Assembly (NCBI GenBank): GCA_025934395.1
Contig: JAICYC010000001.1
Coordinates: 1 to 64,000, forward strand
Direction: 5' to 3'
Origin: Solirubrobacteraceae bacterium
Lineage (GTDB): Bacteria; Actinomycetota; Thermoleophilia; Solirubrobacterales; Solirubrobacteraceae
Length of the DNA: 64,000 bases
A program made the translations under genes and the position numbers. Positions within the stretch are counted from its first letter, which is position 1; the number at the start of each line of letters is the position of its first letter. The notes beneath the pieces are model-generated. The model did not search any database and was not told the origin of the DNA. It saw nothing but the letters and a program-made list of their open reading frames with translations. Shown here piece by piece: positions 5,266-44,702 of this stretch.

Positions 5266-6099
5266 GTGCCCGCGCCCCTCGACCCTCGGCACACGAGCGA
5301 GAACCACGGCGAGCTCGACGGGCTGCCCGTGTACTGGCGAGCAGCGCCCTCGCCGCCCGGTGAGGCCGTGCCGCTGTACCTGCACGGCGTGCCCACCAAC
5401 TCCGACGACTGGCTGGGAATGCTCGAGCGCACCGGCGGGATCGCACCCGACCTGCCCGGGTTCGGGCGCTCCGGCAAGTCCGGGTCGCGCGCGTACACGA
5501 TGGCCGAGTACGACCGCTTCATCGAGGGCTTCCTCGACATGCTCGGGATCGAGCGCGTGCGCCTGCTCGTGCACGACTGGGGCGGCGTGGGGCTCCTCTT
5601 CGCCCAGCGCCTGCCCGAGCGGATCGAGCGGGTGGCGGTCGTCAACGCCGTGCCGCTGCTGCCCGGCTACCGCTGGCACCGCACCGCGCGGATCTGGCGC
5701 ACGCGGCTGCTCGGCGAGCTCTCGATGGGCACGATCGGCCCGGTGACGCTGCGGCTGCTCTCGCGCGAGTCGAACGTCACCCCCGGGCCGATGCCTAAGG
5801 ACTGGCAGCGCAGCGTGCTCGAGCACTTCGACCAGGGCACCCAGCGCGCGATCCTGCGGCTGTACCGCAGCTCCCCGCCGGAGGCGCTCGCCGCCGCGGG
5901 CGCACGGCTCGGGACGCTCGACGTCCCCGCGCTGGTGGCCTGGGGGCTGCGCGATCCCTACATCCCCGCCCGATTCGGCCGCGCGTACGCGGAGGCGCTC
6001 CCGCGCGCGGAGCTGTTCGAGCTGGACGACGCCGGCCATTGGCCGTGGCTCGACCGGCCCGACCTGCTCGACCGGCTCGCGGCGTTCATGAGCGGGTGA
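5266..6099 (+). CDS. Alpha/beta hydrolase of the haloalkane dehalogenase/epoxide hydrolase type
   Basis: Soluble hydrolase of 277 residues. It has the oxyanion motif LYLHGVPTN, an Asp nucleophile in the elbow LLVHDWGGVG, a probable acid in WGLRDPYIP and the catalytic His in DDAGHWPWL. An Asp nucleophile points to dehalogenases and epoxide hydrolases and away from serine esterases; the substrate cannot be read from the sequence. GTG 5266 follows TATCCT by six bases. Its TGA overlaps the GTG of the next gene (GTGA), so the two are co-transcribed. Confidence 0.85.
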   Translation: MPAPLDPRHTSENHGELDGLPVYWRAAPSPPGEAVPLYLHGVPTNSDDWLGMLERTGGIAPDLPGFGRSGKSGSRAYTMAEYDRFIEGFLDMLGIERVRLLVHDWGGVGLLFAQRLPERIERVAVVNAVPLLPGYRWHRTARIWRTRLLGELSMGTIGPVTLRLLSRESNVTPGPMPKDWQRSVLEHFDQGTQRAILRLYRSSPPEALAAAGARLGTLDVPALVAWGLRDPYIPARFGRAYAEALPRAELFELDDAGHWPWLDRPDLLDRLAAFMSG

Positions 6100-7730
6100 G
6101 CAGCGCGGCGCTCAGCGCGGGTGCGGGTGCGGAGGTGAGCGCGCCGCGCGGCGCGCTCGCGTGGGTGCCCGCGTGGGCGCTCACCGCCGTGCTGGGGCTC
6201 GCCTACGTGATCGCCGCGCCGCCGGCGCCCGACCTCGCAGCCGCGAGCTACCGCAGCTGGCTGCTCTCCACCTCCGGCTTCACGCTGTGGGACAACGGCT
6301 GGTACGGCGGCCACCACCTCCCCGCCTACTCGCTGCTCGCACCGGCGCTCGGCGCGCTCGTCGGGCCGCGCCTGCTCGCCGCCGCGTCGATGGCGCTCGC
6401 GACCGCGCTGTTCACGGCCGTGATCCGCGGCCGCTTCCCCCACCGGTCGGTGCGGATCGCCTCGTGGTGGTTCGCCGTCGGCGCGTCGATCGCGCTGCTC
6501 TCCTGCCGCGTGCCGTTCGACCTCGGGCTCGCGCTCGCGCTCGGCGCGCTGCTCCTCGCCCAGCGCGGGCGGCTGCTGCTCGCCGGCGCGCTCGCCGCGC
6601 TCGCCGCGGTGGCGAGCCCCGTCGCGGGCGCGTTCCTCGCGCTCGCGCTCGTGACGTGGGGCCTGCTGGCCCCCGGGCGCAGACGCGCGCTCGCCGCGCT
6701 CACGCTCGCGGTCCTCGTGCCCGTCGGAGCGCTCGTGCTCGTGTTCCCCGAAGGCGGCAGCCAGCCGTTCGTCGCCTCCGCCTTCTACCCCGCGCTGGCG
6801 GGCGTGATCGCGATCGCGCTGCTGATCGGGCGCGCCGAGCCCGAGCTGCGCCTCGGGGCGTGGCTGTACGCGCTCGCGATGACCGCCTCCTACCTCGTGC
6901 CGAGCGCGATGGGCGGCAACGCCGACCGGCTCGGGGCGCTGGCGGCGGGACCCGTGGCCGCGTGCGCGCTCGCGGGGCATCCGGACCGTCGCCGGCGCGT
7001 CGCGCTCGCGGTTCTCGCCCCGTTCCTGCTCTACTGGCAGGCCAACGCGCCCGTGGCGGACTTCTCCAACGCCGTCTCGGATCCCGCCGTCAACGAGTCC
7101 TACTACGCGCCGCTGCTCTCGGAGCTGCGGGCGCTGCACGTCGGCTACGACGCCACGCCCGCACGCGTCGAGGTGGTGCCGAGCGCCGATCACTGGGAGG
7201 CGCGCTGGGTGGCGCCCGCCACGATGATCGCGCGCGGGTGGGAGCGCCAGCTCGACCGCTACCGCAACGGGGTCTTCTACGGCGGGGGCTCCCCGCTCGA
7301 CGCTGCGGGCTACCGCGCGTGGCTCTCGCAGCAGGCGATCGCGTACGTCGCGCTGCCCGACTCGAGGCTCGACTACTCGGCGCGTGCGGAGGCGGCGCTG
7401 CTGCGCAGCGGTCCGCCGTATCTGCGGGAGGTGTGGAGCTCGGAGCATTGGCGGCTGTTCGCGGTGCGCGATCCCACCCCGCTCGCCGCCCCGCCGGCCG
7501 AGCTCACGCGGGTGGGCCACGACTCCTTCACGCTGCGCGCGCCGCGCGCGGGCAGCTACCTCGTGCGCATCCGCTTCACCCCCTACTGGGCGCTCGGGAG
7601 CGGACGGGGCTGTGTCTCGCAGGCGCGCGGCGGCTTCACCGACGTCCGCGTGGGCGGCCCCGAGACCGTGACCGTCACGATCGCGTTCTCGCTGGGGCGG
7701 GTGTTCGATCACGGCGCCAGATGTCGTTGA
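6096..7730 (+). CDS. Polytopic membrane protein of unknown function, GT-C-like
   Basis: A protein of 544 residues with about ten hydrophobic segments in the first 310 residues and a soluble C-terminal part. The stretch LWDNGWYGGHHLPAYSLLAP followed by LGALVGPRLLAAAS resembles the first loop of polyprenyl-phosphate-dependent GT-C glycosyltransferases, but I see no clear catalytic Asp pair. GTG 6096 overlaps the hydrolase stop in GTGA, which decides the start. The C-terminal region (residues about 350-544) has beta-rich segments such as GSYLVRIRFTPYW and may face outside. Substrate and function are unknown. Confidence 0.75.
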   Translation: MSSAALSAGAGAEVSAPRGALAWVPAWALTAVLGLAYVIAAPPAPDLAAASYRSWLLSTSGFTLWDNGWYGGHHLPAYSLLAPALGALVGPRLLAAASMALATALFTAVIRGRFPHRSVRIASWWFAVGASIALLSCRVPFDLGLALALGALLLAQRGRLLLAGALAALAAVASPVAGAFLALALVTWGLLAPGRRRALAALTLAVLVPVGALVLVFPEGGSQPFVASAFYPALAGVIAIALLIGRAEPELRLGAWLYALAMTASYLVPSAMGGNADRLGALAAGPVAACALAGHPDRRRRVALAVLAPFLLYWQANAPVADFSNAVSDPAVNESYYAPLLSELRALHVGYDATPARVEVVPSADHWEARWVAPATMIARGWERQLDRYRNGVFYGGGSPLDAAGYRAWLSQQAIAYVALPDSRLDYSARAEAALLRSGPPYLREVWSSEHWRLFAVRDPTPLAAPPAELTRVGHDSFTLRAPRAGSYLVRIRFTPYWALGSGRGCVSQARGGFTDVRVGGPETVTVTIAFSLGRVFDHGARCR

Positions 7731-44606: not shown

Positions 44607-44702
44607 TGCGCCCGGCGGGAATCGAACCCGCGGCCTGCGGCTTGAAAGACCGCTGCTCTTTGGCTCCCCGAAGAGAACCGTTGACCACTGAGCTACGGGC
44701 GC
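44607..44702 (-). tRNA. tRNA-Glu(UUC)-like gene with an extra hairpin in the D-loop
   Basis: 96 nt. On the minus strand: acceptor GCGCCCG/CGGGCGC, TA, D-stem GCTC/GAGC, position 26 A, anticodon arm GCGGT-CTTTCAA-GCCGC with anticodon TTC, variable loop AGGCC, T-arm GCGGG-TTCGATT-CCCGC, discriminator A, no encoded CCA. The D-loop is 31 nt instead of about 8-11: after AGTGGTCAAC it contains GGTTCTC-TTCG-GGGAGCC, a 7-bp hairpin with a C(UUCG)G tetraloop, then AAA. The D-stem (C11-G24) differs from the U11-A24 expected of bacterial tRNA-Glu. Charging and function are therefore uncertain. A -10-like TAAGCT lies at 44741-44746. Confidence 0.8.

Follow-up and report, generated by a model that had tools for sequence, protein, structure and literature searches.

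A stretch of 64,000 nucleotides (nt) from the genome of a Solirubrobacteraceae bacterium (contig JAICYC010000001.1, positions 1 to 64,000; here called the window) contains, on its minus strand, a transfer RNA (tRNA) gene with the anticodon UUC and what appears to be an additional hairpin in the D-loop. The outline of tRNA ranks with the most strongly conserved features of living things, as one ribosome has to fit all tRNAs. This raises the question of whether an RNA with such a fifth arm can function as a tRNA in translation, and what purpose the arm might serve.

Comparison with related genomes indicates that this RNA, termed here the armed tRNA, is probably a working and essential tRNA-Glu for GAA codons, and for GAG by wobble. 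The proposal applies to the genus of the window (g1, of family f1) and to two genera of another family (g37 and g38, of family f3), all within the Solirubrobacterales. In these bacteria the armed tRNA would have replaced the ordinary tRNA-Glu(UUC), and a probability of roughly 0.75 is assigned to this joint reading. The fifth arm thus appears to belong to routine translation. The observation made in the preliminary description of the locus, which was based on the nucleotide sequence of the window, is right and is more important than that description proposed.

The inserted hairpin and its distribution

The gene matches the Rfam family RF00005 exactly at its ends, with a score of 66.6 bits against a threshold of 29. 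The match is full-length (model positions 1–71 of 71), with 25 nt set aside in the D-loop, and confirms the coordinates, strand, anticodon and in-order cloverleaf pairing first described. Read 5′ to 3′, the RNA is GCGCCCG UA GCUC AGUGGUCAAC GGUUCUC UUCG GGGAGCC AAA GAGC A GCGGU CUUUCAA GCCGC AGGCC GCGGG UUCGAUU CCCGC CGGGCGC A. The D-loop retains G18G19 and has U at position 20, the anticodon stem has 5 base pairs (bp; GCGGU/GCCGC), and the 3′ end is A73, with CCA not encoded. The program ARAGORN detects the gene and, because of the D-loop insert, types it as 'tRNA-???' with a false anticodon.

In the single window sequence the 7-bp helix of the insert is only mildly unusual, as it is equalled by 796 of 20,000 shuffles, and RNAfold applied to the entire RNA pairs the D-loop otherwise. 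Relatives were compared in a gap-free alignment of 24 distinct 96-nt homologues. Over these, 97% of hairpin cells are paired, six of the seven stem pairs show changes on both sides, and there are 43 double-changed cells against a shuffled mean of 11.3. Covariation is 0.84 (shuffled, 0.28), a value reached by none of 500 shuffles, and the signal is abolished when the pairing partners are slid. The minimum-energy pairing of RNAfold has zero double changes and a score at shuffle level; it was rejected, and the hairpin accepted, because of this comparison of relatives. Folded alone, the distinct homologous D-loops of bacteria and viruses also give a hairpin at this site in nearly all cases; that of L172 is an exception and prefers another pairing.

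The alignment shows that the predicted hairpin is conserved and covaries across relatives. The D-loop hairpin, which is nearly constant in location and size, is therefore a real feature of the family by covariation, though the UUCG tetraloop itself varies (UACG, CUCG, UCCG, UUUA and others). On either side of it, GGU-N-AA and AA-GAGC are the same in all 24 sequences of the alignment. Compensatory changes are present in four of the five helices, and the fifth, the D-stem, is invariant. Of 31 distinct sequences, 24 have a total length of 96 nt, and the others, with one exception, come within 1 nt of it. The residues for the elbow contact (G18G19 and T-loop UUC-A) are unchanged in the 24 relatives, so that the contact would be possible.

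Full-length matches with 84–100% identity are found in 21 of 24 g1 genomes; the three genomes without one are merely 58–74% complete. The genomes are mostly draft assemblies from metagenomes. Homologues with a conserved insert and compensatory changes, the evidence sought by the preliminary description, do exist, and the gene is intact rather than a dead copy. Among 399 genomes sampled across the class, the armed tRNA is found solely in g1 and in g37/g38. Patterns that demand a GCUC D-stem and a common T-loop were used to look through 84,980 species genomes for UUC tRNAs whose D-loop is enlarged; of the 54 stretches obtained, 38 are the armed tRNA. Record titles of these 38 are nearly all Solirubrobacterales or Actinomycetota. 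The remaining stretches form no cloverleaf and are chance matches; those from Acidobacteria were rejected on this ground. The armed tRNA is also present in contigs titled Acidimicrobiaceae, Chlamydiae and Alphaproteobacteria (L213, L218, L222), which are probably mislabelled or contaminated bins.

Decoding of GAA and the question of charging

An ordinary UUC tRNA was looked for in the 24 g1 genomes and none was seen. In the most complete relative (G018, 97% complete) the armed tRNA is the sole one with UUC among the 45 tRNAs, all of which were typed; ordinary tRNA-Glu is represented by a single Glu(CUC). Anticodons with C34 cannot read GAA, and therefore the armed tRNA must read this codon. 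Elsewhere in f1 and f3, an ordinary tRNA-Glu(UUC) is retained by the majority of genera.

Codon use was analysed in five gene families, including rpoB, rpoC and gltX, at those columns that show full conservation among the genera that have ordinary tRNAs. GAA codons at these columns fall on Glu in 38 of 39 cases in g1 and in 18 of 18 in g37/g38 (56 of 57 in total), and the residue profile of GAA in armed-tRNA genomes nearly equals that of control genomes with ordinary tRNAs. Reassignment of GAA to Arg or to another residue was rejected by the conserved-column counts, together with a rpoB/gltX count. Codon use thus argues that GAA is decoded as glutamate by the armed tRNA. Because it is the sole UUC tRNA and GAA codons lie at Glu positions, the armed tRNA is best regarded as a housekeeping tRNA-Glu. 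The preliminary description had suggested a specialised or mischarged tRNA, or one used outside translation, and had proposed a count of other tRNA-Glu genes. The absence of any other UUC tRNA in the genus and the position of GAA at glutamate sites speak against this suggestion.

U34, U35, C36 and A37 are strong anticodon determinants of tRNA-Glu (PMC9976931), and these are present in the armed tRNA. In the proposed mechanism, charging would be by the single glutamyl-tRNA synthetase (GluRS) via U34-U35-C36-A37, with an assumed orientation of the arm on the tRNA. Other properties weigh against this reading. The determinant set of Escherichia coli tRNA-Glu also includes U11-A24, U13-G22:A46 and the absence of residue 47 (PMC9976931). 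All 24 relatives have C11-G24, C13-G22 and a 5-nt variable region instead; the lack of U11-A24 had been noted at the outset. With U2-A71 missing as well, several E. coli determinants are gone, and for this reason recognition by GluRS is only assumed. A comparison of GluRS residues found none that are convincingly common to both insert-bearing lineages and absent elsewhere.

A second, dedicated GluRS was considered and rejected, as there is one full-length gltX gene per insert-bearing genome examined. None was found in G009, an incomplete genome, and G014, like several genomes with ordinary tRNAs, has a second match that falls below the threshold. Transfer of GluRS along with the tRNA was likewise rejected: the GluRS tree follows species, with g1 placed with f1 and g37/g38 with f3.

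If the armed tRNA functions as proposed, the elbow can bear a fifth arm in normal translation and a sense codon is read solely through an armed tRNA. These bacteria would then provide a natural test of GluRS function without the known D-arm determinants, and the RNA a natural scaffold for engineered tRNAs. On the practical side, ARAGORN either leaves armed tRNAs without an amino acid or types them as Pro, Ala or Arg, and genomes of this group can consequently appear to have no GAA-reading tRNA.

Origin of the body and role of the arm

With the insert removed, tRNA bodies were compared over 74 positions. Those of the f3 members are nearest to tRNA-Arg(ACG), with up to 61 identities and a similar anticodon arm and variable region; ordinary Glu tRNAs share 47–54. 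The body of the window copy is nearest to tRNA-Arg(UCU), at 58 of 74, and its 7-bp acceptor stem and its D-stem are those of tRNA-Arg(ACG) and (CCG) of the same genome. From these two the armed tRNA differs in having the anticodon UUC, A73 instead of G73, and U20 instead of A20, with a 24-nt insert at that place. A20 is the main Arg determinant (PMC9976931). Position 20 is U in the 24 aligned relatives, and the insert is located there. With respect to the bacterial tRNA-Arg set of A20, C35, U/G36 and A/G73, the armed tRNA has U20, U35 and C36, and A73 alone is compatible.

The Arg-like body, the retained U34/U35/C36/A37 and the insert at position 20 together suggest that a tRNA-Arg body was remoulded to a Glu anticodon. 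Two points count against this: the margin of Arg over tRNA-Lys is small for the window copy, and the Arg ancestry is drawn from about 72 nt with weak tree support. With ordinary bacterial tRNA-Glu(UUC), the armed tRNA shares the anticodon, A37, the loop CUUUCA and, presumably, the reading of GAA as glutamate. It differs in its Arg-like body, C11-G24, C13-G22, residue 47 and the D-loop hairpin. In addition, it has G1-C72, whereas the ordinary Glu tRNAs of Solirubrobacterales have G1-U72; this wobble pair was seen at the ordinary loci inspected (L107, L110, L115, L146 and others).

Alloacceptor tRNA remoulding has been described in mitochondrial and eukaryotic cases (PMC4783518, PMC3923123). As in those, the body of one family appears to have taken the anticodon of another and to have replaced the original gene; the body is closer to Arg than to Glu and the original UUC gene is absent, although the sequence is short and the tree weak. 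Unlike them, the armed tRNA is found in bacteria and phages, and the remoulding is combined with a new structural arm.

Other natural bacterial tRNAs with an unusual cloverleaf are the (9/3) and (8/4) allo-tRNAs and the selenocysteine tRNA, tRNA-Sec (reviewed in PMC7609411). What sets these apart is how long the acceptor and T-stems are, together with their D-stem and variable arm; the armed tRNA has the standard 7/5 arrangement and is changed in the D-loop alone. Class II tRNAs (Leu, Ser, Tyr) similarly have a hairpin arm added near the elbow, but theirs is the variable arm, and the armed tRNA has a variable region of 5 nt. No described tRNA class with a structured D-loop arm was found in the literature searched, outside of which lie most subscription journals; the claim that the insertion falls outside described classes stands to that extent. 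The armed tRNA would nevertheless remain a tRNA doing the ordinary job of a tRNA, without a prior description in that literature.

Viral contigs gave 13 matches to the armed tRNA, of which 12 are clearly homologous, with hairpins that are strongly diverged yet paired. The phage copies are more diverse than the bacterial ones. Terminase, portal, tail-like and other phage families establish the phage identity of several contigs, and some copies sit in arrays of 14 to about 30 tRNAs. In the contig stretches examined, each of L448, L449 and L452 has the armed tRNA as its only UUC tRNA, beside a Glu(CUC) of its own. A search of named phage or plasmid records for the armed tRNA found none. As the GluRS tree follows species, and the RpoB tree does so in broad outline, the patchy presence in two families needs either transfer of the tRNA only or many losses. 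The tRNA-only tree is too weak to give the direction of transfer. Phages are a plausible vehicle; the remoulded five-armed tRNA-Glu would have spread between phages and bacteria, the direction being conjectural. A broader proposal may be offered tentatively, as being somewhat unlikely: that a class of five-armed tRNAs circulates between phages and bacteria, that the hairpin replaces identity elements or acts as a shield, and that phage transfer enabled it to take over an essential codon in two lineages.

Perhaps the arm helps keep the Arg-like body from being charged with arginine, by occupying the position read by arginyl-tRNA synthetase (ArgRS). This role is slightly favoured because the arm sits where bacterial ArgRS reads A20, though it is held at less than even odds. 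It is opposed by viral contigs in which the same body and arm are found with other anticodons, CCU (Arg) in L455/L456 and UGC (Ala) in L457.

A second possible role, ranked below exclusion of ArgRS and on the whole doubtful, is that the hairpin of a working tRNA-Glu(UUC) protects it against a defence nuclease or toxin that holds tRNAs by the D-loop or elbow and cuts them. Phages would carry the armed tRNA against host tRNA cleavage, and some bacteria would have adopted it likewise. Phage tRNAs are known to evade tRNA-cleaving defences (PMC10264068, PMC11555353), and the nuclease AriB has been modelled as contacting the D-loop, with the change U16C impairing cleavage (PMC12409363). Consistent with such a shield are the homologous copies in at least 12 phage contigs, three of these with the Glu(CUC) companion noted above, an RNA ligase gene near the L448 array, and the existence of further phage tRNAs with D-loop hairpins. 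However, a nuclease specific for the armed tRNA has not been identified, the genomes not having been searched for one. Throughout the bacterial genera the arm is retained, the setting is chromosomal and the window has no phage genes, and phages with full tRNA sets may merely copy the tRNA of the host. Thanks to the phage copies, it can be tested directly whether phage tRNAs serve in evasion or gene transfer.

Neutral retention is marginally less probable again; the remaining probability goes to other roles. The insertion would have been fixed once and tolerated only if compactly folded, with the stem drifting under pairing. The variable pocket of the D-loop is the tRNA site most tolerant of extra residues, and the stem sequence is indeed free, with only the pairing and the flanks kept. 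On the other hand, over two bacterial families and many phages a neutral insert would be expected to become shorter or more variable than the near-constant length allows, and the bases on either side are invariant.

That the RNA is mischarged, or is specialised for making tetrapyrroles or peptides, is very improbable: the canonical Glu D-arm determinants are missing (PMC9976931), but the RNA is the sole possible reader of a codon in use at Glu positions, and its neighbours belong to ordinary metabolism. Least credible of all is that the gene is decaying, or is a duplicate that an integrating element left behind. Fragments of its 3′ half do occur elsewhere in several genomes, but only these are broken, the full copies being intact, compensated and near universal in the genus.

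Gene features and other D-loop inserts

Table 1. Parts of the armed tRNA gene in the window.
Feature	Position	Strand	Remarks
tRNA gene	44607..44702	-	96 nt, anticodon UUC, D-loop insert; RF00005, same-genus homologues
Acceptor stem, 5′ strand GCGCCCG	44696..44702	-	Pairs with 44608-44614; 100% of cells paired in 24 relatives
Acceptor stem, 3′ strand	44608..44614	-	Pairs with 44696-44702; RF00005 match and pairing over 24 relatives
Discriminator A73	44607	-	
D-stem, 5′ strand GCUC, C11-G24	44690..44693	-	Pairs with 44655-44658; same in all 24 relatives
D-stem, 3′ strand GAGC	44655..44658	-	Same in all 24 relatives
D-loop, 31 nt	44659..44689	-	Invariant alignment columns AGUGGU-N-AA 5′ of hairpin, AA 3′
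Inserted hairpin GGUUCUC-UUCG-GGGAGCC (extra arm)	44662..44679	-	7 bp and 4-nt loop; covariation in relatives
Anticodon UUC	44644..44646	-	In loop CUUUCAA, A37
Variable region AGGCC, 5 nt	44632..44636	-	Residue 47 present, unlike ordinary tRNA-Glu
T-arm, 5 bp, loop UUCGAUU	44615..44631	-	RF00005 match and pairing over relatives

The neighbouring genes in the window encode transaldolase, transketolase, polysaccharide deacetylase, FGGY kinase and aldo/keto reductase. Inspection by eye for an archaeal-type intron revealed no 3-nt bulge/4-bp helix/3-nt bulge around the insert; a search for the endonuclease was not made.

Fragments of the 3′ half of the armed tRNA are found away from the gene in many genomes: L072 (G012:C70:48052), L073 1735-1781 (G019), L135 near 2608 (G014), L162 (G021), L252, L263, L265, L268, L269 and L271. 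Elements integrating at tRNA genes usually leave such 3′-half fragments behind as scars.

A second UUC tRNA, with a smaller D-loop hairpin (GGCC-CACA-GGCC), is present at L409 (G321:C18:27136-27226) and also at L179. It has a different body (GCCCCCA) and scores 49.6 bits, and the main form is found in that genome as well.

In the phage arrays, the RNA ligase gene of L448 (9978-10700; phrog_548, PF09414) lies beside about 30 tRNAs including the armed tRNA and possibly serves in tRNA repair. The L449 array also has tRNA-Sec and transfer-messenger RNA (5452-5539 and 6699-7089; Rfam RF01852 and RF00023). The UGC tRNA of L457 is without the G3-U70 pair expected for tRNA-Ala. A phage UUC tRNA at L442 (5560-5654) has a D-loop hairpin with a GCAA loop that is shifted by about 2 bases, possibly an independent insertion.

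An unrelated phage tRNA-like group, mostly of the form GGTATT...GATACCA, has a D-loop insert around GGGAUUUAUCUCCC and odd anticodon arms. It is found in viral contigs L458, L460, L464, L466, L467, L469, L470, L472, L475, L482, L491, L492, L496 and L505. Lastly, single phage tRNAs in L468, L485, L499 and L503 (apparently Phe, Arg UCU, Gly UCC and one of less evident type) have D-loop hairpins of their own, and from these it seems that such inserts arise repeatedly in phages.
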